64,000 bases of DNA from Streptomyces griseus (GTDB lineage Bacteria > Actinomycetota > Actinomycetes > Streptomycetales > Streptomycetaceae). The position numbers were made by a program, and so were the translations under genes. How positions within the stretch are numbered: the stretch's first letter is position 1; every line of letters starts with the position of its first letter. The notes below the pieces were generated by a model, which searched no databases, had not been told where the DNA came from, and saw only the letters and a program-made list of their open reading frames with translations. Positions 571 to 18,689 of the stretch are shown piece by piece. The DNA is taken from the NCBI RefSeq assembly GCF_001715295.1, contig NZ_MDKB01000002.1:1572313-1636312 (forward strand), given 5' to 3'.

Positions 571-1716
571 TCAGTCCGAAGTGGCTTCCACAGCACCGCC
601 GTTCTCGGCGTCCGACCCGCTGAGCCAGAAGTCCGACGCCTTCGCCACCTGGTCGTCGCGACCGGCGACAGGCCGGGCGTAGTGCCGAGTGGTAACGCTC
701 GCGTTCGAGTGCCCGAGCCGGTGCGCGGCGGTCATCACGCCATACCGGTCAGCGACCCACGTCCCGTGTGAGGCGCGGAGATCGTGCGGCGTGACGTCGG
801 TGAGCCCGGCAGCCGCCACGGCGGGATCGAAGTACGCCTTGCGCCACTGGTTGTAGCGCAGAGGCTTGCCGCCGGGCGTGACGAAGAGGAGAGCGTCCTC
901 CGCACCCGACAGCGTCTCCAGGTGCCGGCCGATCCGCGCCGCGAGTGACGGCCCGATCCGCAGGACCCGCTTCTGATGGGACTTGGGAGTGTCGAAGACC
1001 AGGGTGCCGTTCGCTTCGGCCAGGTTCTCATCTACGAGGACCAGGCCACCGGACACATCGATGTCCGCTCGCCGCAACGCGAACGCCTCCCCGACCCGCA
1101 GACCCGCGTAGGCGAGCAAGGAGATCAGCAGGTCATGCGGTTTCGTCGCGCTCCGCACAATCCATGAGGCTTCCAGCGGGGTGAGGATGTGCGGCTCGGT
1201 CTGCGGCATGCGGGGCAGCTTCACGCCCCTGCACGGGGTCTGCCCGATCATCTCGTTGTCGACGGCCGCCCGCATGATCTGCGAGAGCACCCGGTAGGCC
1301 TGCCTGATCCGCGAGGCGCTGAGACCACGGGTCTTCATCGCACCGACCCATTCGACGATGGTGATCGGCCGAAGGCTGGAAAGCTCACGATCACCGAGCG
1401 CCGGAACGATCAGCGAGTTGATCAGGGATCGGTACGAGGCCTGTGTCTTGTGCTTGAGCTGCGGGGAGACCGCGGTGAGCCATCGTGCCGACCAATCGCG
1501 GACGGTGGTCCGTCCCTCGGCGGGGTCGAGCCAGCGGCCCTCCTCCATCTCGATTCGCTTCCGTGCCAGCCAGCGATCGGCGTCCGTCGTTGTCGCGAAT
1601 GTCTGATCAGCGGCACGCAGCACGCCATCAGGCCCCGGATACCGAGCCTGGAACCGGCCGGACGGCAGCTTACGGATCCGCCCGAAGGCGCGTCGGGACT
1701 TACGCTTGGCGGCCAT
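571..1716 (-). CDS. int: Tyrosine site-specific integrase
   Basis: Integrates and excises the element at its chromosomal attachment site. The 381-residue protein has the usual layout: an N-terminal AP2-like arm-binding segment (1-65), a SAM-like core-binding domain (about 70-160) and a catalytic domain (about 175-355). Catalytic residues are visible: Arg207 in AGLRVGE, a Lys near 245, His311 and Arg314 in HDLR, His336 in LGHS and nucleophile Tyr346. The ATG overlaps the xis stop codon by one base (TGATG), so the two are translationally coupled. Length and motifs are intact and the gene looks functional. Placement after xis and rep matches pSAM2. Confidence 0.95.
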   Translation of the reverse strand: MAAKRKSRRAFGRIRKLPSGRFQARYPGPDGVLRAADQTFATTTDADRWLARKRIEMEEGRWLDPAEGRTTVRDWSARWLTAVSPQLKHKTQASYRSLINSLIVPALGDRELSSLRPITIVEWVGAMKTRGLSASRIRQAYRVLSQIMRAAVDNEMIGQTPCRGVKLPRMPQTEPHILTPLEASWIVRSATKPHDLLISLLAYAGLRVGEAFALRRADIDVSGGLVLVDENLAEANGTLVFDTPKSHQKRVLRIGPSLAARIGRHLETLSGAEDALLFVTPGGKPLRYNQWRKAYFDPAVAAAGLTDVTPHDLRASHGTWVADRYGVMTAAHRLGHSNASVTTRHYARPVAGRDDQVAKASDFWLSGSDAENGGAVEATSD

Positions 1717-1946
1717 CAGGCAGCCCTCCGGTACGAGTACGCCGAGGCGGGCCGCAGGACGATCGGCGCCACCGTGTGGGCACTGACGTACTCCTCCACG
1801 GCACTCTCGGGGATGCGGACGTGTCGGCCGACCTTGACGAACGTGATGCGGCGTTCCTCGATGAGCCGGCGAGGGAAGCGGAGACCGGTGCCGAGGCGTT
1901 CGGCGACCTGGTGCACGGTGAGCAGTCGGTCTGCCACGGTCACCAC
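1716..1946 (-). CDS. xis: Excisionase (Xis), MerR-like winged HTH
   Basis: A 76-residue DNA-binding protein. Residues 6-60 form the helix-turn-helix/excisionase fold: a TVHQVAERLG helix, then a basic segment and VGRHVRIPESAVEEYV, the wing and last helix typical of excisionases. It would bind near the attachment site and direct Int towards excision. It starts 6 bases inside the end of rep and its stop overlaps the int start, so rep, xis and int form one coupled unit as in pSAM2. Basic residues near 24-35 (LRFPRRLIEERR) fit DNA contact. Confidence 0.88.
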   Translation of the reverse strand: MVTVADRLLTVHQVAERLGTGLRFPRRLIEERRITFVKVGRHVRIPESAVEEYVSAHTVAPIVLRPASAYSYRRAA

Positions 1947-3355
1947 TCCCCCTCGTCGGTAGTGCGCTCCTTCAGTGCGTCGCGGGCGGTCTCGCGGTTG
2001 GTCTGGAGGTCACGGGCGATGGTGGCGGCGAGAGCGCCTTCGCCGGGGGTGTGCCCGTGGCCGACGTACTGCCAGTCCGTCAGGACGAGGACAGTGTCAG
2101 GTTCACGGTCGGCCAGGCCGAGGACGGTCGCTTCCTGTGAAGCGCGGTAGTCGGCGCGTTCCTGGCGGAGGGCACCGAGGGTGGTCGAGTACGTGCGGGA
2201 CTTGGACGAGAAGTGGCCGCGAAAGCCGAGCATGTGCGCCCAGGCCCAGAGGCGCCGGTCCGGATAGAGGCTGTCGAGCTCACGGCATACGGTGATGAGT
2301 CGGCGGGTGTGAACGGGAACGCGGTGGCGGTCAAGTTCGGCGAGTTCACCGATACGGCGGTCCAGGGTGCCGGTGTTCTCGGCGGCTTTGGTGGCGTACT
2401 TGGCCACGTACGAGGCGACAGCCTGTTCGGTGACATCTGAACCGTCGCCGAAAGCCTTGACCGGGCGGACGTCGAGCTGTCGGCCCCACCGGAAGGTCCG
2501 GGCCGGCTGTTCACCGGCAGCCGGGACGGAGACCGACGTGTACGAGTGCGCGGCTGCGGCGCGTATCGCGTCGGTGAGGAGATCAACGGTGGCCCAAGAG
2601 GGCGGCGGCGTACGAGGTCCCTCGGGGCCGTCGAGACGTACGACAGCGTGGAAGTGGAGGGCTCCGCGCTTCTGGAATTCGGCGACCTTGCCGAAGGAGA
2701 CGCGGAGATGGTCGCCCAGCTCACGGCGTGGGATGCCCGTGTGGATGGCGAGTTCGCGGCGGAGTCGGGTGGTGAAACGCTGCCAGAGCTCCCCGGCGTG
2801 GTTGTTGAAGAGCACGGCGCCCGCGTAGTCGTAGGTCTCCGGATCAAGGGCGGAGCCCAGGTCCCCGGAGTCCGAGGCGTGCGCGATGCCGCAACGGCAG
2901 GTGCCCCGGTCGGGTCGGTTGTGGACAGGGCCGAACGAGGGTGCGGTGAGGGTGGCGAAGACGCGCGGGTGGTCGCGTACGGCGGCGGTGATGTCGCGGC
3001 GGTCGTCTCCGGCGAGGCCAGCGCGGATCAGGTGGTAGGTGTCGCCCGCGTAGGTCCAGGCGCAGGAAGGACAGCGGGAGGCGCGGCGGTTGCCACAGGC
3101 GATACGAAGGCGTCCGCCCGGCTCGTACGCGGTCGAGTAGCGGTGCAGGGTCTCGCCGGTGGTCTTGTCCTTGTGGGTTACCCAGCCGCTCAGATGGACG
3201 GGGTCGGCACAGCCGCCGGTGCGGCGGATCTGGTCCTCCCAGCGGGTGTAGTCGGAGGCCGAGGCCACCCGGAGGACGTCCCCGAGGACGGTCGGGTCGA
3301 GCTGTGGGGCGGGCATGGACCGCTTCTCTTTCGAGGGTGAGGGCCGGTGGGCCAT
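1940..3355 (-). CDS. repSA: RepSA-type rolling-circle replication initiator
   Basis: Nicks the double-strand origin to start rolling-circle replication of the excised element. The 471-residue protein carries the hallmarks of the actinobacterial RepSA group: an N-terminal cysteine cluster (C87, C95, C98, then C153, C155), motif FATLTAPSFG near 133-142, the metal-binding HUH motif HFHAVV (H234, H236), and the catalytic tyrosine motif YVAKYATK (Tyr316/Tyr320). The ATG at 3355 is preceded by GGAAGGA. A second ATG at 3316 is possible but has a weaker ribosome site. Xis begins inside its 3' end. Confidence 0.92.
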   Translation of the reverse strand: MAHRPSPSKEKRSMPAPQLDPTVLGDVLRVASASDYTRWEDQIRRTGGCADPVHLSGWVTHKDKTTGETLHRYSTAYEPGGRLRIACGNRRASRCPSCAWTYAGDTYHLIRAGLAGDDRRDITAAVRDHPRVFATLTAPSFGPVHNRPDRGTCRCGIAHASDSGDLGSALDPETYDYAGAVLFNNHAGELWQRFTTRLRRELAIHTGIPRRELGDHLRVSFGKVAEFQKRGALHFHAVVRLDGPEGPRTPPPSWATVDLLTDAIRAAAAHSYTSVSVPAAGEQPARTFRWGRQLDVRPVKAFGDGSDVTEQAVASYVAKYATKAAENTGTLDRRIGELAELDRHRVPVHTRRLITVCRELDSLYPDRRLWAWAHMLGFRGHFSSKSRTYSTTLGALRQERADYRASQEATVLGLADREPDTVLVLTDWQYVGHGHTPGEGALAATIARDLQTNRETARDALKERTTDEGEW

Positions 3356-5284: not shown

Positions 5285-6637
5285 TCAGGCGGTGGCCGGA
5301 GAGGCCTTCGCTGATGGCACAAGGTCGGTGGCGGTGCCGGTGGTGGGCCGGAAAGGGGCCAGCTCTGGCAGGTCCGGTGCCCTGTCGGCGTACCGGTTGC
5401 AGAGGTTCACGGCCTGGCGGAGCGAGGTGTGCGGAGCGCGAATGCGGTGCCAACCGCCGGACGCGTCTCCCGCGATGGCGAGGCCTCGCAGTTCGGCGGG
5501 AATCTGGATGGCGGCGAGGACCGCGTCCGGGGAGATGTCGCCGAAGGCCATGTTGGCAGAGGTCTCGTCGTTGAGACGGTGGGCGGTGCGGCCGGTGAGT
5601 TGGGCGCGAAGCATGGTGATGCCCTTGCCGAGTTCGGAGCCGAAGCGCTGTCCGCAGATTTCGAGGTAGATACCGGCGGCGCGGCCGAGCTGCGCGAGAC
5701 GGACCAGGGCGGTGATGATGCGGTCCCGTCGCCTCTCCTCCTCCTTCGTTGCGTACAGGGCGAGTTCGGCCACCTCGTCGACCAGGACGACGACGGGGGT
5801 CGGGCGGAGCTCATCAGGCAGGTCCCAGATGTCGGCGGCGATCTCCGCGTCCGGCACATCGACGGTGATGCGCTGCTGGGTACGGATGAGGCGGTAGACG
5901 TCCGCCATCCGCGCCACGAGTGCATCGAGGAGTTCGGCGGCGGTGTCCGGGCTGTCGGCCAGCGCTGAGAACCGGCGGGCCAGCGGGAAGAGCTCGACCC
6001 CTTGCTTGCAGTCGATGCCGACGAGGGCGACGTCCAGAGGTGCAAGGCCGGCGACCAGGTTGCGTTGGTAGACCGACTTGCCGGACTCCGTGGCGCCGAG
6101 GGTGAGGGCGTGAGGTATCGCGCGGTAGTCGCGGTAGTGCACCGCCCCGTCCTCCCGAAGGGCGACCGGTACCCGCATCGCCCGGGTCTCCGTCTCAGCA
6201 GGCATCTGCACCCGCTTGAGCACGTCGTATCCGGTCATTCGCACCTCGACGACCCCAGACCGCACCTCACGCGAGGTCACGCCGAACATCGAGAACGAGT
6301 GCCGAAGCCGGTCCGAGGCCGCAGCGATGTCGAAGATGTCCTGGCCGGGACGGAGCTTGAGTCGGAGGACCAGGCCGGTGCGAGTCGGCCGCAGTCGCCG
6401 GATACGCGGTGGGCGGGGCTCAGGTATCGGCCGGTTGGTGGCCCGAGCCAGAGATAACCGCCATCGCGCCGGCGGAACGGTCAACCCGCACGCGTCCATG
6501 ACCGAGCGGTACCGGACCAAGACCCGCAGTGCGGCCAGGGTGGCCCCGAAGGCCAGCCAGTACCAGGCGGGCAGCCGCCACCGCAGGAGACCCGCAGCGG
6601 CGACGACCAGCACCAGAGCGACCGTGAAGGCGGTCAT
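5285..6637 (-). CDS. traSA: TraSA, FtsK/SpoIIIE-type conjugal DNA translocase
   Basis: The motor that moves double-stranded element DNA between hyphae. The 450-residue protein (ATG 6637; the longer frame to 6745 overlaps the upstream gene) has two membrane segments at 4-18 and 24-43. After these come a linker and an FtsK-like AAA+ ATPase with Walker A GATESGKS (181-188), Walker B VVVLVDEVAE (281-290) and GRAAGIYLEICGQR, where the family has the Q-R sensor. It starts two bases after the 119-codon gene, so they are coupled. Streptomyces transfer needs only this protein plus a cis-acting locus. Confidence 0.93.
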   Translation of the reverse strand: MTAFTVALVLVVAAAGLLRWRLPAWYWLAFGATLAALRVLVRYRSVMDACGLTVPPARWRLSLARATNRPIPEPRPPRIRRLRPTRTGLVLRLKLRPGQDIFDIAAASDRLRHSFSMFGVTSREVRSGVVEVRMTGYDVLKRVQMPAETETRAMRVPVALREDGAVHYRDYRAIPHALTLGATESGKSVYQRNLVAGLAPLDVALVGIDCKQGVELFPLARRFSALADSPDTAAELLDALVARMADVYRLIRTQQRITVDVPDAEIAADIWDLPDELRPTPVVVLVDEVAELALYATKEEERRRDRIITALVRLAQLGRAAGIYLEICGQRFGSELGKGITMLRAQLTGRTAHRLNDETSANMAFGDISPDAVLAAIQIPAELRGLAIAGDASGGWHRIRAPHTSLRQAVNLCNRYADRAPDLPELAPFRPTTGTATDLVPSAKASPATA

Positions 6638-6639
6638 GA

Positions 6640-6999
6640 TCAGGCCGCCTTCGACCCTGCGGTGGCGACGTCGGCGAGCGAGGTGACCGCGACCGCGCGG
6701 AACGCGATGCCATGCCGCCGCTGACCGTTGAAGTCGTTCTCCCACGGACGGGCGACCAGGCCGGTGAGCGCGACCGGCGTGCCCATGGACAGCTCACCGG
6801 TGATCCCGGGCTCCGGAACGGTGACGGACAGGATCTCCACCTCCTCGTTCGCCGCGAACATCACGTCCACGGTCATGAGCTGAGCACCGGTCTCCGTGTC
6901 GGTGGCGACCTCACCGGTGCGGCGGTCACGGACCTTGACCTGCGGAGTCTTGGCGACCATCACGACAGCGCTGGAGGTGTCGACGGGAATCTGACGCAC
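6640..6999 (-). CDS. Conserved AICE hypothetical upstream of tra, beta-rich
   Basis: A 119-residue protein starting GTG at 6999 with GAGGAG 8 bases upstream. It is rich in beta-strand patterns (VVMVAKTPQVKVRDRRTGE, VEILSVTVPEPGI, GTPVALTGLVARPWE, GIAFRAVAV), which resembles a small OB-fold, so single-strand DNA binding is a possible but unproven role. It is the first gene of the leftward tra-spd-rep-int transcript, and two KorSA-type operators lie directly upstream. Confidence 0.8.
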   Translation of the reverse strand: MRQIPVDTSSAVVMVAKTPQVKVRDRRTGEVATDTETGAQLMTVDVMFAANEEVEILSVTVPEPGITGELSMGTPVALTGLVARPWENDFNGQRRHGIAFRAVAVTSLADVATAGSKAA

Positions 7000-7088: not shown

Positions 7089-7138
7089 ACCCGCCGCGAA
7101 GAAGAACTCGCGACGGGTTGCGGGGAGTTGAGCGGCCG

Positions 7139-7918
7139 TCAGTCGTCGGCAGGGATCCGGTACTCGAAAACGAACTGGTCAGCGGCCATGAGCGTGTCGC
7201 ACACCTCGACCACCCGACCCGCGGTCGTACGGGCCTCCCGGATCAGGTGGACCACGGGCGCACCGGGGCTGAGCGCCAGTTCCGACGCCTCCGACTTCGA
7301 GGCCGGGCGCGCTTGCAGCGTCTCGACGAACTCCGCGAACTCATGCCCGTGATCTTCGAGTCGGGCATAGATGCCACCGCCCCCGGGGTTCTCGGCGAAC
7401 AGCTCGGGGATCTCCTTCACCACGTCCCAGGGCAGGTACGACGAGGCGGTTTCCACCGGGGTGCCGTTGCGGAAGTAGAGGCGCCGGCGGGCCAACACCT
7501 GCGTACCGGCGGGAACGCCGAGGCGCTCGGCGGCGTCCTCGGGCGCGTCCATGGGACCGATGTAGAGGACGCTGACTTTGGCAGTGGCGCCGGACTGTGC
7601 GGACTCCGCGAGGTAGGCGGCCTGGCCCCCTTGCCGGAGCGAGCGCCGGAACCGGTCGGAGGAGCGGTGCCGTACGGGGGGCCGGTTCTTCACGATCGAG
7701 CCCTTGCCGTGCCTGGTCTCGACGAGCCCACTCGCCCGTACCTCGACCATGGCCTTACGGATCGTCCCGCCGGAGACGCCGTAGCGGTCCACCAGCTCGG
7801 ATTCGCTCGGCACCATGTCGCCGGCTTTGAGAACCCCCGCCCGGATCTGCTGCACGAGGTCATCAGCGATCTGCACATATCGAGGACCGGAACCGGCCCC
7901 TCCCGCCGCAGTTCCCAT
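7139..7918 (-). CDS. korSA: KorSA-like GntR/HutC repressor of the element
   Basis: Transcriptional repressor that keeps transfer and excision genes silent. I chose ATG 7918 (259 residues) because GGAAGGA lies just ahead of it; the longer ATG at 7957 would put the start inside an operator. The N-terminal winged HTH (about 13-75) shows YVQIADDLVQQIRAGVL and GVSGGTIRKAMVEV, followed by the UTRA ligand-binding domain (about 90-255), typical of the HutC branch. KorSA of pSAM2 represses its own gene and the pra activator gene. Three matching 20-bp palindromes flank this gene, supporting the same circuit. Confidence 0.87.
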   Translation of the reverse strand: MGTAAGGAGSGPRYVQIADDLVQQIRAGVLKAGDMVPSESELVDRYGVSGGTIRKAMVEVRASGLVETRHGKGSIVKNRPPVRHRSSDRFRRSLRQGGQAAYLAESAQSGATAKVSVLYIGPMDAPEDAAERLGVPAGTQVLARRRLYFRNGTPVETASSYLPWDVVKEIPELFAENPGGGGIYARLEDHGHEFAEFVETLQARPASKSEASELALSPGAPVVHLIREARTTAGRVVEVCDTLMAADQFVFEYRIPADD

Positions 7919-7936
7919 AGTCCTTCCCTGCCTCCT

Positions 7937-7956
7937 ATGCTCCTCTACATGAGTCA
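7937..7956. promoter_or_regulatory. KorSA operator O3 in the divergent promoter
   Basis: ATGCTCCTCTACATGAGTCA matches O2 at 16 of 20 positions. It sits upstream of korSA and overlaps the start codon (7949) of the divergent NUDIX gene, so one bound dimer would cover both promoters. Confidence 0.65.
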
Positions 7957-8401
7957 ATCACAGGAAGCGGCACCCACTCCCCTGCACTCCGTGTCCGTCG
8001 CCGGAGTAGTGGTGCGCGAGGACGGCCGTCTCCTGGCGATCCGCCGAGCCGACAACGGCACCTGGGAGCTCCCCGGCGGCATCCTCGAACTCAACGAGAC
8101 ACCCGAGGCCGGCGTTGCACGCGAGGTCTGGGAAGAGACAGGCATCCACGTCGAGGTGGACCAGCTCACCGGCGTCTACAAGAACACGACCCGAGGCATC
8201 GTCGCCCTGGTCTTCCGCTGCAAGCCCTCCGGCGGCACCGAGCGCACATCAAGCGAGTCGACAGCCGTCTCCTGGCTCACACCCGACGAAGTCAGCGAGC
8301 GCATGGCCGAGGTCTACGCGGTCCGTCTCCTGGACGCCCTGGACGGCAACGGCCCTCACGTGCGGAGCCACGACGGCAAGCAGCTCATCACAGCGGGATA
8401 A
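7949..8401 (+). CDS. pif: NUDIX hydrolase, Pif-like transfer-immunity candidate
   Basis: A 150-residue protein with a complete NUDIX box at about 39-61: G-x5-E-x7-REVWEETGI. The ATG at 7949 is used because the family fold begins about 12 residues later; an in-frame ATG at 7937 is an alternative. No clear Shine-Dalgarno is seen, so it may be leaderless. In pSAM2 the immunity factor Pif, which blocks transfer into cells already carrying the element, contains a NUDIX motif and lies in the same regulatory area. Equating the two here is inference from motif plus location. Confidence 0.8.
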   Translation: MSQSQEAAPTPLHSVSVAGVVVREDGRLLAIRRADNGTWELPGGILELNETPEAGVAREVWEETGIHVEVDQLTGVYKNTTRGIVALVFRCKPSGGTERTSSESTAVSWLTPDEVSERMAEVYAVRLLDALDGNGPHVRSHDGKQLITAG

Positions 8402-8442
8402 GACTTTCTCTACTTCATCAAGGCCCGCGCACGGCGCGGGCG

Positions 8443-8462
8443 CGCGCCGCCTCTGCGGCGCG
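8443..8462. terminator. GC-rich hairpin after the NUDIX gene
   Basis: CGCGCCGC (8443-8450) and GCGGCGCG (8455-8462) form an 8-bp stem with a CTCT loop, 41 bases past the stop codon. Confidence 0.5.
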
Positions 8463-8583
8463 GCCTGCCTCCTGTCTCCGCCCCGGCTGGCCGCGCCCGG
8501 CGGCGCGCTCGACGGCTGCGGGCATGAAGTGGGGAGACACCCTCTTTGGCTGGGGCGGTCGGCTCCACGGCTTTAGCCACCTC

Positions 8584-8708
8584 CCCGGTTCGGGTCCCGC
8601 GTCGAGCAAGACCAGGGGGCCACTCGTTCAAATTCCGGGCAGGATCACAGCCTGCCCGAGTTGCCGGCCAGCGTACGGCCCCCTGATCATGCTCGACCCC
8701 AAACCGGG
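8584..8708. repeat. Nested four-arm inverted repeat (cruciform)
   Basis: Four pairs of arms are nested around one centre: CCCGGTT 8584-8590 / AACCGGG 8702-8708; GTCGAGCA 8601-8608 / TGCTCGAC 8690-8697; CAGGGGGCC 8613-8621 / GGCCCCCTG 8677-8685; CGGGCAGG 8636-8643 / CCTGCCCG 8651-8658. It lies in the 455-bp gene-free stretch 8402-8856. Single-strand origins of rolling-circle elements, transfer origins and structured RNAs all look like this; which one applies cannot be told by reading. Confidence 0.7.
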
Positions 8709-8856
8709 CAGGACACCGGCCAAACCCGCTCCGCCGACCTCAACAGGGCTACCACGGCCATGCGGGGAACTGGACACCCATGGCCCCCTCCGGCATCGGT
8801 GAGAAGCTATACCAAAGGCCTGGAAGTGAACGCTGCGTAAGCTACCATCTCCCCAT

Positions 8857-10173
8857 GTGCGCCCTCTTGATCCACTGCCCCCAATCGAGCGCGGAGCTTC
8901 CCCGCTGGGCGGCCTTCCTGCCGCAAGGTCAGTGACCGCGCGCGATAGACGCTGGACAGTTGTTGACTTGTTCAGCGGCGCTGGGGGAATGAGCTGTGGG
9001 TTCCATGCTCATCCGGCATTTCGCATCGCAGCGGCGGTGGATGCCCAGAAAAGCAAGCCGAGCCGAAGCACGCTTGATTGCAATGATACTTACGAACGCA
9101 ATATTGGCATCAAGCCCCTCGCGTACGATCTTCAGGAAATAGGCGCTTCAGAGCTGCTTAAAGCAGTTCGCCGTGAGGGCAAATTTCGCAGCCCCACAAT
9201 TCTGCTTGCCTGCCCTCCCTGCACTGGATTCACTCGAACGCTGCCCAAAAATCATCTCGAGGACGACCCTCGCAATAGCCTAGTAGGTCGCGTAGCTGAG
9301 TTTGCGGCGATCCTGAAACCCAAAATTATAGTTCTCGAGAACGCTAGAGAGTTGATTCGAGGTTCTTTTAGGTCACATTCAGAGAATCTTACTTCGCAGC
9401 TCGAGAAGTTGGGCTACTCAGTCCACTCGCAAATTTACCGATTTGACCGGATGGGGCTGCCACAGCGCCGCGAGCGCGCCATCATTATTGCAGTGGCCCC
9501 CGATATGCCACTCCGCACCCTTGACGACCTTTGGGCGGGATGGGAGGTCGACCCAAAGGCGACCACGGTCCGGCATGCGATTTACGACCTACCCGAAGTC
9601 AGTGCCGGCGAAGCGCACCCGGCGGATCGATCGCATGTGAGCAGCAATGTGACAGATGTAGTTCTGCGCCGAATTCAGGCAATTCCGACAGACGGCGGAT
9701 CCTGGATTAGCCTCTTCGAAAAGCCTGAGACAGTCGAACTGGCTACGCCAGCGATGCGAAGGTCGGTGGAAGCTGCTCGCACGAACCACTTCAGCGATGT
9801 GTACGGTCGAATGGCATGGGATGCACCCGCACCAGTCGTTAAGCGCGAATGTAGTCACGTAGGAAACGGCCGCTACACACATCCGCGGCAGGATCGTCTT
9901 TGTACCGTGCGAGAGCTTGCGCTGCTACAAGGATTTCCGACCACCTACGATTTCGAAGGAACCAGCCGACAGAACGCTTACCGTCACGTAGGCGACGCCG
10001 TTCCCCCTCTGATTAGCCATCAACTAGCTTGGGTATGCAGTTGGATGTTGGGCGGAAAGAGGCCAAATCCAGACCAGTTCGTGCTGCCGGGTACGACACT
10101 TCACGCACGCGACATACTTGAATCCAAGGCGCCACACGTCAAACAGCTCAAGATTTCTACAGAACAAGCCTAG
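8857..10173 (+). CDS. DNA (cytosine-5) methyltransferase
   Basis: Methylates cytosine at C5 in a specific DNA site. The 438-residue protein shows the ordered motifs of the family: I VDLFSGAGGMSCGFH (36-50, AdoMet binding), IV ACPPCTGF with catalytic Cys122, VI VLENARE (Glu161; usual form ENV), VIII QRRERA (203-208), then the target-recognition region, and X YRHVGDAVPP. Start GTG 8857; homology begins near residue 30, so a later start is possible. No endonuclease gene is adjacent. It is followed 39 bases on by a GHKL ATPase gene. Base composition is clearly lower in GC than the flanks (codons AAT, ATT and AAA are frequent). Confidence 0.93.
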   Translation: MRPLDPLPPIERGASPLGGLPAARSVTARDRRWTVVDLFSGAGGMSCGFHAHPAFRIAAAVDAQKSKPSRSTLDCNDTYERNIGIKPLAYDLQEIGASELLKAVRREGKFRSPTILLACPPCTGFTRTLPKNHLEDDPRNSLVGRVAEFAAILKPKIIVLENARELIRGSFRSHSENLTSQLEKLGYSVHSQIYRFDRMGLPQRRERAIIIAVAPDMPLRTLDDLWAGWEVDPKATTVRHAIYDLPEVSAGEAHPADRSHVSSNVTDVVLRRIQAIPTDGGSWISLFEKPETVELATPAMRRSVEAARTNHFSDVYGRMAWDAPAPVVKRECSHVGNGRYTHPRQDRLCTVRELALLQGFPTTYDFEGTSRQNAYRHVGDAVPPLISHQLAWVCSWMLGGKRPNPDQFVLPGTTLHARDILESKAPHVKQLKISTEQA

Positions 10174-10212
10174 TGGCTCGAGGGGAAACCACAAACCGGA
10201 GGTCTGCACAGA

Positions 10213-13212
10213 ATGGCTAATTTTAAAGCCCGTGCCCGTGCAGTCGACATGCTCGGGCGCCAACAGATCGCCGGCATCCCTACGGCAATCAATGAGCTCT
10301 TCAAGAACGCACACGACGCCTACGCTGAGAACGTCATCGGGGATTACTTCCGCGAGGAGAATGTTCTAGTAATTCGTGACGACGGTGTCGGCATGACCCA
10401 GCGTGATTTTCTTGAAAAATGGCTTGTTGTTGGAACAGAGAGCAAGGTCAACGCAGCCTCCTCTCCCGATGTTCCGGACGGGACGCGGCGCCCCATCCTT
10501 GGGGAGAAGGGCATCGGACGTCTGGCTGTGGCTGCGGTTGGCCCTCAGGTCATGGTTCTGACCCGCAGCACTAAGGATCGCTTCCTGACCTTGTCCCTCG
10601 TTAATTGGACCCTATTCACAGCACCTGGGATTGACCTTGAAGAGGTTGAAATCCCCGTCCGCCAGATCCCAGTCGGACGACTTCCCGACCAGAATGACGT
10701 CCGCCAACTCGTACAGGCAATTCGAGATAATCTCAGCCTGCTCGACGGAAGAATCGCCGAGAATATCTCTCAGACGGTCCATCATGAGATCTCATTGCTG
10801 GAGAATCTGGACCCTGTCGTTATTTCTCAGCGCATGTCTGGTCCGAGTCTTCGAGAGGCATCAGGGACCCAGTTCTGGATCACTCCGACTGACGAGATGC
10901 TCGCATTCGACGTAAGCGGAGATCCCAGAGGTGAGCAAGAAGCCTCACCTCTCTTTAGGACGCTGATCGGCTTCAGCGATACTATGGTCCCCGGCAATCC
11001 GCCGCCACCCATGGTCGCTCACTTCTATGATCATCGCTCGCGTGAAGTATCTCTGGACGTGATCGGCGACGGCGAGTTTTTCACGCCTCAGGATTTCCAA
11101 CTCGCAGATCACCAAATTTCGGGCCGCTTCGATGAGCATGGCCAATTTACGGGTCAAGTGTCCGTATACGGCAGAGAACCTGTTTCTCACGTAGTTCCGT
11201 GGCCAGGATCCCGAGGGAATAGAACTCTTTGTGGTGAGTTTGAGCTAAACCTCGCATATGTGCAAGGGAATAAGAGTCAATCCCGTTTGGGAGACGAAGA
11301 CTTCAACAGGCTGGCGCGTAAGCTCGCCCGCGTCGGAGGCCTGTACGTCTATCGAGACAGGGTCCGTATGCTTCCATACGGACGCAGTGATTTCGACTGG
11401 CTCGACATTGAACGCGAGCGCAGCAAAAGCGCTTCTGATTACTTCTGGTCCTACCGGCGCATGTTTGGCGTCGTTGGGATCAACAGTAGGGAAAACTTTC
11501 GCCTGCAGGAAAAGGCGGGACGCGAGGGTTTCCGAGCAAACGCGGCATATCGCGAGTTTAGAGATCTGCTTCAAAACTTCCTCGTACAAACAGCTCGAGA
11601 CTTCTTCCGTAATGACAGCTCGGACGATTCCTGGAGAATCACTCGCAGCGAACTGGAACGCGAATCGGAAGCACGGCAGAGACACGATAAGCAATCTCGA
11701 GTACGGAAGGCAGATTTTCGGCGTGAACTACAGCTCGCGGAACAGCGCCTGAATAGTGGAACACCAGAACAGGAGGTAGGGGTCCTTCTTCGAGAACTTG
11801 AGATAAACCTTGCTGATGCCACCTCCGACACAAACCAAGCGAGGGCATCTGAGAAGGTCGTGATGGCTGAGACGCGAGCGCTTCGAGCCATTATCGAGAT
11901 CCGGACCAGATATAGGGTTTCCAAGCCTAGAGGAGTGGCGCTACCAAAGAGTGTCGCCCAGGACTGGGACGACTATCAGCGAGAATTTGAGGTCATGGAA
12001 CACGGCCTACTAGATGAAATTAGAAAGGAAGTTGAGAGGCGGAGCTCCGCAGCAGCTGAGCGGTTGGGCTCTTCTCTTGATAGGCGCCGGCGTCTAGAGT
12101 CGGGAATCAAGGGTCGAATTTCCGACGCGCAAGGAACCCTGGGACGGACGCACCGACAGACTACTGAAGTCGTAGAGGTGATGCGCGAATCGCTAACGCG
12201 TCAAGCAAGCGACAGCCGGAAGGCCTTCGAAGACGATTGCCGACTTGTCCTTCTTGAACTTGCAGGCATGGACACCGACAGGCTTAACGATCAGGAAATC
12301 GCAGACATCCGTCGTCGTTTTGAGGACAGGATCGATGGAGCCCTGTCACGAGACCTTTCGAAACTGAACCAGCTCGTTGATCGTGTAAATATGTCGCTCG
12401 GAAGTGAAACTGATTCTTCCAATGGAGATTTTGTCGATGTAATCGGCTCCCTCGAGCAAGAAGTAGTCTCACTGCGAGACCGAGCCGATGAAGATCTAGA
12501 ACTTGCCCAACTCGGCTTGGCACTTCAGGTCATTAATCACGAATTTTCCTCTAGCATTCGAGCAGTTCGAAATAACCTACGCAGGTTGAAGTCCTGGGCA
12601 GACGCTAACAAGGGCCTGCGCCCCGTATATTCTGATCTTCGAGCCAGCTTCGAGCACTTGGATGCGTACCTTCGACTCTTCACGCCTCTAAACCGTCGCC
12701 TCTATAGGCGGGACACAATCATGAAGGGGGCCGAGGTTGAGCGATTTCTTGTCGACCTGTTTCAAGAGCGAATTTCGCAAGAAAGTATTCAACTCGAAGC
12801 AACCGCGGAATTTCGCTCTGCAAAAGTACGAGCTTACCCATCGACACTCTATCCAGTCTTCGTCAACTTGGTTGACAATGCCATTTACTGGCTAAGTACG
12901 CGCGGCAACCCGCGTGTACTTCGCCTAGACCATAAAGAAGGGGAATGGATCGTCGAGGACAATGGCCCTGGCGTTCCCACAGTAGACCAGGCTCGAATCT
13001 TTGAGCTCGGATTCTCTCGTAAGCCAAGTGGCCGCGGAATGGGTCTGCATATTAGTCGAGACGTTCTTAAGAAAGAGTCGTGGTCCTTGTCTCTATCGAC
13101 GTCGCCCCTCGGCGGAGCAAGATTCACTCTCGGCGAGCCTGATGATGACTCCGCATCTCCATCGAAGGAGCAGGATATTGCGGACACGCTAGCCCTGGAG
13201 TTCGATGACTAA
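10213..13212 (+). CDS. Dual GHKL ATPase: MutL/MORC-like N-domain plus kinase-like C-domain
   Basis: A 999-residue protein with two ATP-binding GHKL modules. N-terminal: INELFKNAHDAY (Glu28, Asn32), IRDDGVGM (54-61) and GEKGIGRLA (97-105), the pattern of Hsp90/MutL/MORC ATPases. A middle region of about 450-740 is rich in charged helices, likely coiled coil. C-terminal: an LQVINHEF segment with His776 resembling a DHp phospho-acceptor helix, then a histidine-kinase-type ATPase with N box VNLVDNAIYW (884-893), DNGPGVP (916-922) and RGMGLHIS (about 941-948). GHKL proteins beside DNA methylases occur in known restriction-like islands. Here I infer a sensor/ATPase signalling to the receiver protein downstream. 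Lower GC than the flanks. Confidence 0.85.
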   Translation: MANFKARARAVDMLGRQQIAGIPTAINELFKNAHDAYAENVIGDYFREENVLVIRDDGVGMTQRDFLEKWLVVGTESKVNAASSPDVPDGTRRPILGEKGIGRLAVAAVGPQVMVLTRSTKDRFLTLSLVNWTLFTAPGIDLEEVEIPVRQIPVGRLPDQNDVRQLVQAIRDNLSLLDGRIAENISQTVHHEISLLENLDPVVISQRMSGPSLREASGTQFWITPTDEMLAFDVSGDPRGEQEASPLFRTLIGFSDTMVPGNPPPPMVAHFYDHRSREVSLDVIGDGEFFTPQDFQLADHQISGRFDEHGQFTGQVSVYGREPVSHVVPWPGSRGNRTLCGEFELNLAYVQGNKSQSRLGDEDFNRLARKLARVGGLYVYRDRVRMLPYGRSDFDWLDIERERSKSASDYFWSYRRMFGVVGINSRENFRLQEKAGREGFRANAAYREFRDLLQNFLVQTARDFFRNDSSDDSWRITRSELERESEARQRHDKQSRVRKADFRRELQLAEQRLNSGTPEQEVGVLLRELEINLADATSDTNQARASEKVVMAETRALRAIIEIRTRYRVSKPRGVALPKSVAQDWDDYQREFEVMEHGLLDEIRKEVERRSSAAAERLGSSLDRRRRLESGIKGRISDAQGTLGRTHRQTTEVVEVMRESLTRQASDSRKAFEDDCRLVLLELAGMDTDRLNDQEIADIRRRFEDRIDGALSRDLSKLNQLVDRVNMSLGSETDSSNGDFVDVIGSLEQEVVSLRDRADEDLELAQLGLALQVINHEFSSSIRAVRNNLRRLKSWADANKGLRPVYSDLRASFEHLDAYLRLFTPLNRRLYRRDTIMKGAEVERFLVDLFQERISQESIQLEATAEFRSAKVRAYPSTLYPVFVNLVDNAIYWLSTRGNPRVLRLDHKEGEWIVEDNGPGVPTVDQARIFELGFSRKPSGRGMGLHISRDVLKKESWSLSLSTSPLGGARFTLGEPDDDSASPSKEQDIADTLALEFDD

Positions 13213-13289
13213 GGGCTGATCTTTGGTACCGCTTCATCCATTGCACTACCCTGACTCATAGCGAAATAGATCGACAGGAGACCGCACAG

Positions 13290-14990
13290 ATGGCAGCGAC
13301 TAAAATGTCGTCTTCTTTGCATCCGGTAGATTCAGCTCTGAATTACCAGGATCTTTGCATACGTGCGGCCCAGGAGTTTATCCACACGATTGTGGTTGTC
13401 GATGATCGCGCTACTTATGGGGAGCAGGAGAAGGTAACAGGGCTTATCGATCCTAACTCAGGCACCGCCTTTTCGGAGTCCTTCGATGACTCGACTGATT
13501 TTGAGCTTGGTGGGGCATCTCTCGATGTTTCGGTACTCACTGATGCCAGCGCAGATATCGGTCTGACCTGCGCGGTCCTTCGTCCGTCTCAGGATGAGCA
13601 GGACGATGGGACCCTCAATAGGCGGCTCGTAAAAGCAGCACGCCGCGCAGATGTTTTGGTCCTGGACTGGCAGCTAAACGACGCTGTCGACGGCCAAGCG
13701 GCCCTAAAGCTGCTGTCTGAGGTGGCAGCAGAGGACCAACTGGGTCAAGGTCGACTCAGATTGGTGTGCTTCTATACTAGTCATCCAGATTTGGAGAGCG
13801 TTTTTCAATCAATCGCAGGCCATCTCGACACCGCAGTTCTTTCTTCATCTGGACCAAACGATTCGTCGCGTTGGCTTGACTGCGGCTGCATGCGAGTTGT
13901 GGTGCTTGCAAAAGCTGGCGGCCTGACAATAGATTCAGTGCACTCAAATCTCCAGGTAGAAGAAAATGATTTGCCTCAGAAGTTGGTGGAGGAGTTTGCC
14001 GTACTCACTGCCGGCTTGGTGAGCAACGTTGCCGTGGCCTCACTTGCTGCCGTTAGGGCTGATGCACACAGGCTGCTCACCCGATTCGGGGTCAACCTCG
14101 ACACACCATTCCTGTCGCATCGATTCTACGAGGGCGGCCCTGAGAGTGAGGAGCTGCTTGTTCGTTTGGTCTCTGATGAGATTAAGACCCTTTTGGACAG
14201 CGCAGACGTTCGTCGCTGGTTGGAGCCCAAGGCCATCGCGCTTTGGGCTGAGCAGCATATAGCCGATCAAGTCGAGTTGACAGTCAAGAAGAAGACTGCC
14301 TTGATATCTAAAGATGAGCTAGTCCAGGCCATTTCCGGCGACAGGCACCGAGGTCAATTCGAGGTGACCAATCAGGCCATGGCTGGCCATAAATTTAACC
14401 TGGGCCGAGAGTACAAAGAAACCATTACTAGCGTACTCTCTCCCGATGGATCTGCCGAGAGCTTGGATTATGATTTCGCTCGCCTGACATGCCTAGCCCG
14501 AAATGATCCCTCTCCTTTCCCGGGAGATCGGACACCTATTTTGACAGAAGGCACCGTGGTGAGAGGGCGGTATGGTCAGGAAAAGATATACCTTCTTTGC
14601 TCCATGCCTCTGTGTGACACCGTCCGCGTAGGCAGCGAACGTTCATTTCCCTTCGTTCCTCTTAAATCTGTCGGCCCCGCAGACCGATACGACCTCGTTG
14701 CCTTGAGCCCGGAAGGGCAGCGCCTTTATCTCGCTTTCTCGACCGGAAAGCACTATGACACTGTCCGTCACACTTTCGCTGGCGATGAGAGTGGCGTCGT
14801 TCGCTCGAGAAAAAAGTCTGGTCAACTGGCGCAGTTCGTCTTCTACGATTCAAGCAGGAAGCCGTGGGTCTGGGTAGCAGAACTTCGGTTCCAACATGCC
14901 CATCGCAAACTGAATGACCTCGGTGCCGCTGCCAGTCGAGTAGGACTTGATGAGGCTTCCATACTGCGTTCCGCAAGCCAGAGGAAATAG
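13290..14990 (+). CDS. Receiver-domain protein with large unknown C-terminal region
   Basis: A 566-residue protein. Residues 33-212 read as a response-regulator receiver with an inserted loop: acidic pair DD (38-39), phosphoacceptor Asp126 in DVLVLDWQL, Thr163/Ser164 after a beta-strand (VCFYTS) and Lys208 in VVVLAKAGG. About 80 residues separate the DD pair from Asp126, far more than in ordinary receivers. The C-terminal 350 residues have no motif I recognise and no DNA-binding helix-turn-helix, so they may be an effector or a partner-binding region. GGAG precedes the ATG. It lies 77 bases after the GHKL gene, same strand, probably one operon. Confidence 0.8.
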   Translation: MAATKMSSSLHPVDSALNYQDLCIRAAQEFIHTIVVVDDRATYGEQEKVTGLIDPNSGTAFSESFDDSTDFELGGASLDVSVLTDASADIGLTCAVLRPSQDEQDDGTLNRRLVKAARRADVLVLDWQLNDAVDGQAALKLLSEVAAEDQLGQGRLRLVCFYTSHPDLESVFQSIAGHLDTAVLSSSGPNDSSRWLDCGCMRVVVLAKAGGLTIDSVHSNLQVEENDLPQKLVEEFAVLTAGLVSNVAVASLAAVRADAHRLLTRFGVNLDTPFLSHRFYEGGPESEELLVRLVSDEIKTLLDSADVRRWLEPKAIALWAEQHIADQVELTVKKKTALISKDELVQAISGDRHRGQFEVTNQAMAGHKFNLGREYKETITSVLSPDGSAESLDYDFARLTCLARNDPSPFPGDRTPILTEGTVVRGRYGQEKIYLLCSMPLCDTVRVGSERSFPFVPLKSVGPADRYDLVALSPEGQRLYLAFSTGKHYDTVRHTFAGDESGVVRSRKKSGQLAQFVFYDSSRKPWVWVAELRFQHAHRKLNDLGAAASRVGLDEASILRSASQRK

Positions 14991-18560: not shown

Positions 18561-18595
18561 GAGGCCCCCGACCATATGTACTGGTCGGGGGCCTC
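18561..18595. terminator. Perfect 14-bp stem terminator
   Basis: GAGGCCCCCGACCA (18561-18574) pairs with TGGTCGGGGGCCTC (18582-18595) around a 7-nt loop. It sits 7 bases beyond the 3' end of tRNA-Ser and so probably ends the leftward tRNA transcript; it may also stop the rightward GntR transcript. Confidence 0.85.
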
Positions 18596-18602
18596 TCGCC
18601 TG

Positions 18603-18689
18603 CGGTGGGTGTGGGATTTGAACCCACGGTGACATCGCTGCCACGACGGTTTTCAAGACCGTTCCCTTAGGCCGCTCGGGCAACCCACC
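18603..18689 (-). tRNA. serT: tRNA-Ser(UGA)
   Basis: An 87-nt class II tRNA: acceptor stem GGTGGGT (18689-18683) with ACCCACC (18610-18604), anticodon TGA (18655-18653), a long variable arm, a T-arm with GTTCAAATC, discriminator G; CCA is not encoded. Its 3' end faces the mobile element, the usual geometry for an AICE attachment site. Confidence 0.97.

Follow-up and report, generated by a model that had tools for sequence, protein, structure and literature searches.

A one-strand hairpin of pSAM2-type AICEs as a putative single-strand origin of rolling-circle replication

A long hairpin of about 183 bases (8557-8739) in the stretch of DNA analyzed here (the window, 64,000 nucleotides of the Streptomyces griseus contig NZ_MDKB01000002.1) is probably the single-strand origin (sso, i.e. 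the minus origin) of a rolling-circle AICE of the pSAM2 type. This assignment, made on comparative sequence grounds, has four observed pillars, namely a conserved hairpin with compensated base pairs, a fold preference for the rep-sense strand, a fixed orientation to rep, and independence of Rep and Tra. The last three of these favor the sso among the options of a previous sequence-only reading, which had proposed a cis-acting site (sso, clt or origin) or a structured RNA; a clt and a Rep-specific origin are disfavored, and the structured RNA is retained as a rival.

The host AICE and the extent of the hairpin

The AICE is delimited by paired attachment repeats, the right one (18590-18664) at a tRNA-Ser gene and its partner, 92% identical over 75 bp, 172-246 bp to the left of the window, which indicates an element of about 18.9 kb. 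It codes for a tyrosine integrase (571-1716, minus strand; PF00589), the rolling-circle initiator RepSA (1940-3355, minus strand, as the favored fold of the hairpin; PF20199, E = 1.3e-143), an FtsK/SpoIIIE-type transfer protein, Tra (5285-6745, minus strand; PF01580), and a NUDIX-domain protein (7118-8401, plus strand; PF00293), the left neighbor of the hairpin. The hairpin is placed between this NUDIX gene and the cargo, and in pSAM2-type AICEs it often occupies the equivalent spot, after a regulator or NUDIX gene and ahead of the cargo. The cargo of the window (8857-14990), which has a low GC3, encodes three notable products: a C5 cytosine methylase, a Response_reg_2 protein, and a protein of 999 aa in which HEF_HK occurs besides two HATPase domains. 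It looks like an acquired defence-type operon, of which PADLOC clearly names the methylase alone.

The four exact arm pairs of 7, 8, 9 and 8 bp with one shared centre, from which the sequence-only reading started, can be read directly from the sequence at the positions it gave: 8584-8590 (CCCGGTT) with 8702-8708 (AACCGGG), 8601-8608 (GTCGAGCA) with 8690-8697 (TGCTCGAC), 8613-8621 (CAGGGGGCC) with 8677-8685 (GGCCCCCTG), and 8636-8643 (CGGGCAGG) with 8651-8658 (CCTGCCCG). The gene-free stretch of 455 bp around them is equally real and spans 8402-8856. Folding of 8570-8720 bears out the view that the nesting exceeds chance, with z of -6.05 (plus strand, RNA parameters), -6.23 (minus strand, RNA) and -4.77 (plus strand, DNA), and in none of these three cases did any of 200 shuffles match the real sequence. 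The 125-bp span then delineated (8584-8708) is the true core of the element, but it is too short as a description of the whole: the fold of the minus strand, presumably the functional one, runs over 8557-8739, from a GGTCGGC/GCCGACC stem base up to the tip. Its main stem is formed by a left arm at 8601-8621, with a sequence (type A) that is replaced in the type B copies described below, and a right arm at 8677-8697, and it is capped by an apical stem-loop (8636-8658; CGGGCAGG-ATCACAG-CCTGCCCG), in or near which left-truncated copies elsewhere mostly break.

Over 8557-8739 the minus strand attains a z of about -7.6 with RNA and DNA parameters alike, whereas on the plus strand the outer stem is broken and z is only -3.5 (DNA). 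Likewise, the covariance model R1, built from 31 sequences of which the window's own hairpin is one, scores 8555-8741 at 218 bits on the minus strand and 55 on the plus strand. An Rfam search of the window recovered two tRNAs as its sole matches above the gathering score, and thus nothing at 8557-8739; 8410-8870 had no match in a phage collection, and no intrinsic terminator (a stem-loop with a T run) was detected in 8350-8950. The hairpin lies outside annotated genes and has extensive intrastrand structure, as an sso would require. Directly to its left is a second imperfect palindrome (8405-8540), whose GC-rich core is enclosed by the complementary arms 8407-8418 and 8524-8535. Other plasmids have a portion of this palindrome with 81-95% identity, in one case following a DUF1152 gene in surroundings for which AICE genes are not listed.

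Stem replacement, strand preference and relation to Rep and Tra

Comparison of the copies revealed two principal forms, type A (as in the window) and type B (e.g. L040), which have the same edges and apical stem-loop but differ in their main stems, with type B lacking 8-nt blocks on both sides relative to type A. Compensatory changes between related elements, on which the sequence-only reading had staked its proposal, were indeed recovered, and the arms are both conserved and strongly covarying. Across 31 aligned copies, drawn from types A and B and from a third group, pairing holds in 97.8% of the cells as against 89.0% in shuffles, a percentage that is favored by the derivation of the structure from the same alignment. 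Doubly changed cells number 110 versus 28 (sd 3.9) in shuffles, with double changes at 17 pairs; five measures were compared with 500 shuffles, no shuffle coming up to the real alignment in any of them, and sliding the partners by one column lowers pairing to 54-58%. Between copies, to judge from this alignment, the stems get replaced while the pairing stays.

The rep-sense strand (minus in the window) forms the more stable fold in all 58 copies and has the lower z in 54 of the 58. Correspondingly, wobble is strand-biased: counting only pairs that occur in the folds of both strands, and with cells representing sequences rather than events, G-T on the minus strand outnumbers G-T on the plus strand by 62 to 8 cells in type A and 16 to 1 in type B. 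Given this bias in stability and wobble, selection seems to favor folding of just one strand, as would suit either displaced ssDNA or an RNA. For a structured non-coding RNA, transcribed leftward from the minus strand and perhaps regulating transfer, replication or immunity, the covariation and the preference for G-U would look identical. However, conservation ends abruptly on the side of the would-be leftward promoter: in a set of 34 copies, a few bases at the right stem base suffice to bring pairwise identity down from 0.90 to 0.29, and the flank beyond differs from copy to copy without any relatedness, leaving no conserved outside promoter for such an RNA. The left edge fades across about 20 bases. 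A sigma-70-type scan of 8350-8950, not tuned to Streptomyces, also found no promoter, and an RNA would leave the fixed orientation to rep unexplained; we regard it as unlikely.

This orientation emerges from a comparison of loci with rep, tra and the hairpin, 44 of which passed the filters out of 63 tried. In all 44 rep is opposite to the plus strand of the hairpin, at distances of 3.3-12.6 kb. Raw correlations of pairwise identity, computed on related sequences with no tree, are 0.79 for rep with tra, 0.25 for rep with the hairpin and 0.27 for tra with the hairpin. Individual cases display the same decoupling: in L100 Rep and Tra are 96-97% identical to those of the window's AICE, yet its stem is of type B, while 61 of the 182 pairs with hairpins at least 90% identical have Reps below 60% identity and 10 pairs with such hairpins have Tra proteins below 50%. 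Rep and Tra, as far as these identities indicate, evolve together and the hairpin tracks neither. A site bound by one of these proteins should follow it, whereas a site read by the host need not, and it is this consideration that disfavors both a clt and a Rep-specific origin.

A cis-acting transfer locus bound by the FtsK-type Tra is hence the least probable of the readings weighed here, as the identity of the hairpin hardly follows that of Tra and offers no sign of Tra-specificity. The 8-mer GACCCGGA of pSVH1 is absent from the hairpin and occurs at chance level in the window. According to one AICE survey (PMC9513070), a clt motif is yet to be described for pSAM2, though a transfer site should be needed, which would leave room for such a locus; the same survey reports TraB specificity for pJV1, pSVH1 and pIJ101.

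In a sample of 40 Streptomyces regions anchored on RepSA matches, which were chosen irrespective of the hairpin and include five regions shorter than 10 kb, strong hairpin matches were found in 14, all 14 on the strand of rep; a control sample anchored on Prim-Pol yielded one in 20. This suggests that the hairpin is one of perhaps several minus origins rather than a universal one. In five genomes picked for holding the hairpin, 11 of the 12 high-scoring RepSA genes have it on their own strand within about 8 kb. In a further family from the search of the class (f19) all three hairpins, with yet another stem sequence, are located 2.2-6.3 kb from a high-scoring RepSA and on its strand; the two genomes of this family also have four lower-scoring RepSA genes without a hairpin. 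Conversely, among 40 loci selected for the hairpin (L080-L119, 18 kb per locus) a rep match was detected in 32, one of them a fragment, and none in the other eight.

Distribution and truncated copies

The hairpin is single-copy in its own genome and has matches in 270 of 392 Streptomyces genomes, with two candidates scored per genome. In the host's class 23 of 296 genomes match, within 3 of 114 genera, and the covariance model of 31 copies found strong matches in 2 of 20 RepSA regions outside Streptomyces. Among plasmid records, 17 match the wider region, some of them solely in the stretch left of the hairpin, and 19 match a type B copy. One 11.6-kb plasmid (NZ_CP130632.1) combines the hairpin with genes for RepSA, FtsK, GntR and a serine-type recombinase family protein; this record is titled Streptomyces sp. 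NL15-2K yet filed under Kutzneria buriramensis, and its taxon label is doubtful. The hairpin is, by these counts, common to many mobile elements of Streptomyces and its relatives, and it is apparently maintained by selection.

Some copies occur in other settings. Linear plasmids carry hairpins with no AICE genes listed around them, and several of these plasmids have right-half type B copies (L273, H30-H34) close to their termini, at distances of about 0.1-2 kb. A link of the H30-H34 half matches to telomeres was not adopted, as these plasmids come from related strains. Recognizable homologues also constitute the family f15 (L368, L371), with several copies per genome, two of them separated by 1.8 kb; RepSA is scarce or missing in the genomes concerned, and a RepSA search of one such genome holding three copies gave no match. 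The f15 hairpins could have another use or be the remains of another replicon. Hairpins also accumulate at the border of the cargo: L002 has two in the same orientation (8001-8199 and 13707-13897), 5.5 kb apart with cargo between them, and L118 has one each of types A and B (11046-11238 and 11949-12102), 0.7 kb apart.

These paired copies, together with the dispersed copies without rep, the sharp right edge with its unrelated flank and the swapping of stem types between near-identical AICEs, would be expected of a module that itself moves, or acts as a crossover point for cargo exchange, and has no role in replication. Such a module is nevertheless improbable, since strongly compensated pairing that favors one strand, along with a fixed orientation to rep, calls for a role specific to a strand, and no recombinase is regularly linked to the hairpin.

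Copies truncated on the left break preferentially at the tip. Among 22 of them, which were selected as truncated and are not all independent, 17 break in the apical zone that makes up 27 of about 110 nt; the associated binomial P of 3e-7 assumes independent and uniform breaks, neither of which holds. Omitted from this set were L147, from the same species as L065, and L004, L071, L075 and L077, which have no shared anchor, an internal deletion or the left half only. In a sample of 80 loci, out of 89 stretches detected, for which an intact right half was the sole criterion, the left half is present in 75, and the five that are cut are all cut in the apical zone. The sequence abutting the half hairpin is in one case tra (L066) and in another rep (L060), which run into it, while in L068 a frame running into it reads, by eye, like a serine recombinase. 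From 109 right-half and 87 left-half matches, with E no higher than about 1e-14 and with scores for two candidates in each genome, 29 right halves lack the left and seven left halves lack the right; at least 5 of the 29 and 3 of the 7 are listed elsewhere as longer or full copies, artefacts of the two-candidate scoring that make this asymmetry only suggestive. On the evidence of these breaks, the tip is prone to recombination, which would be expected of a hairpin that does form in vivo.

Half copies were rejected as proof of a nick site: their breakpoints are scattered over about 27 nt, L167 is an insertion with the left part about 2 kb away, and L191 is by appearance a deletion between short repeats. 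The concentration of the truncations is also what a nick in the apical loop could cause, were the hairpin the double-strand origin of RepSA; its near-central loop and the frequent proximity of RepSA would be compatible with such an origin. Against this, the identity of the hairpin hardly follows that of Rep and betrays no Rep-specificity, near-identical Reps accompany different stem types, the breaks do not fall on one phosphate, and the hairpin is 3-13 kb away from rep, making a double-strand origin very improbable.

A wider proposal, which we put forward tentatively and as a single chain, is that one hairpin family might be the shared minus origin of many actinobacterial AICEs, with its tip also being their break point. 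Folding of ssDNA at the time of replication would then leave molecules with a fixed end at the tip and a variable end in tra, rep or int; these might reintegrate as satellites consisting of cargo plus integrase, without replication or transfer genes, and in this way the sso would promote the exchange of cargo and give rise to defective AICEs.

Predicted action and comparison with known systems

The preferred reading, an sso, would operate as follows. RepSA would drive rolling-circle replication of the excised circle, displacing what is likely to be the rep-sense strand (minus in the window); as a rule, rep mRNA and the displaced strand are of the same polarity. On this strand 8557-8739 would become single-stranded and collapse into one long hairpin, and a host enzyme, either RNA polymerase or primase, might recognize this structure and, with a primer set close to the apical loop, initiate the complementary strand. 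Weighing against an sso are its presence in only 14 of the 40 RepSA loci, the one strong match in the Prim-Pol control, the copies without rep and the lack of a homologue in pIJ101 (see below). A literature search, mainly outside subscription journals, found no sso of an AICE; surveys of these elements include PMC3218068 and PMC9513070. The exact boundary, the interchangeable stem types and the predicted strand of this covarying candidate make second-strand synthesis of AICEs directly testable, and the covariance model can serve as a marker by which actinobacterial genomes may be screened for elements of this sort and for what is left of them.

As a putative sso the hairpin would be comparable to the sti/sso of pIJ101 from Streptomyces lividans, the minus origin of a rolling-circle conjugative plasmid, which in PMC4170104 is said to recruit host factors. 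A search of pIJ101 with the covariance model recovered no homologue of the hairpin. The best match, at 19.8 bits, was rejected as a proven sso: it is situated around a TCACGTGA palindrome inside an ORF (7970-8377) and not at a known sso. The 135-aa product of this ORF has the length given for that of spdA2, consistent with its being this gene. Homology to pIJ101 is in any case supporting and not strictly defining for an sso, as sso families differ. The staphylococcal ssoA, ssoT, ssoU and ssoW are long imperfect hairpins that are swapped as modules among plasmids with different Reps; they are like the present hairpin in their modular exchange across Reps.

A further parallel is sso1 of ICEBs1 from Bacillus subtilis, which, according to PMC4595007, is about 200 bp long and belongs to a rolling-circle-replicating integrative conjugative element; the same text describes ssos as orientation-specific and active only when single-stranded. 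ICEBs1 has a relaxase and a type IV system, unlike the AICE with its RepSA initiator and FtsK-type protein, and its sso1 has been assayed, whereas the Streptomyces hairpin is a candidate known from sequence. Integron attC sites likewise work as folded single-stranded DNA with a bias towards one of the two strands, and keep their structure despite sequence drift. Unlike them, the hairpin has no integron integrase found beside it, and its orientation is conserved relative to a rolling-circle rep.
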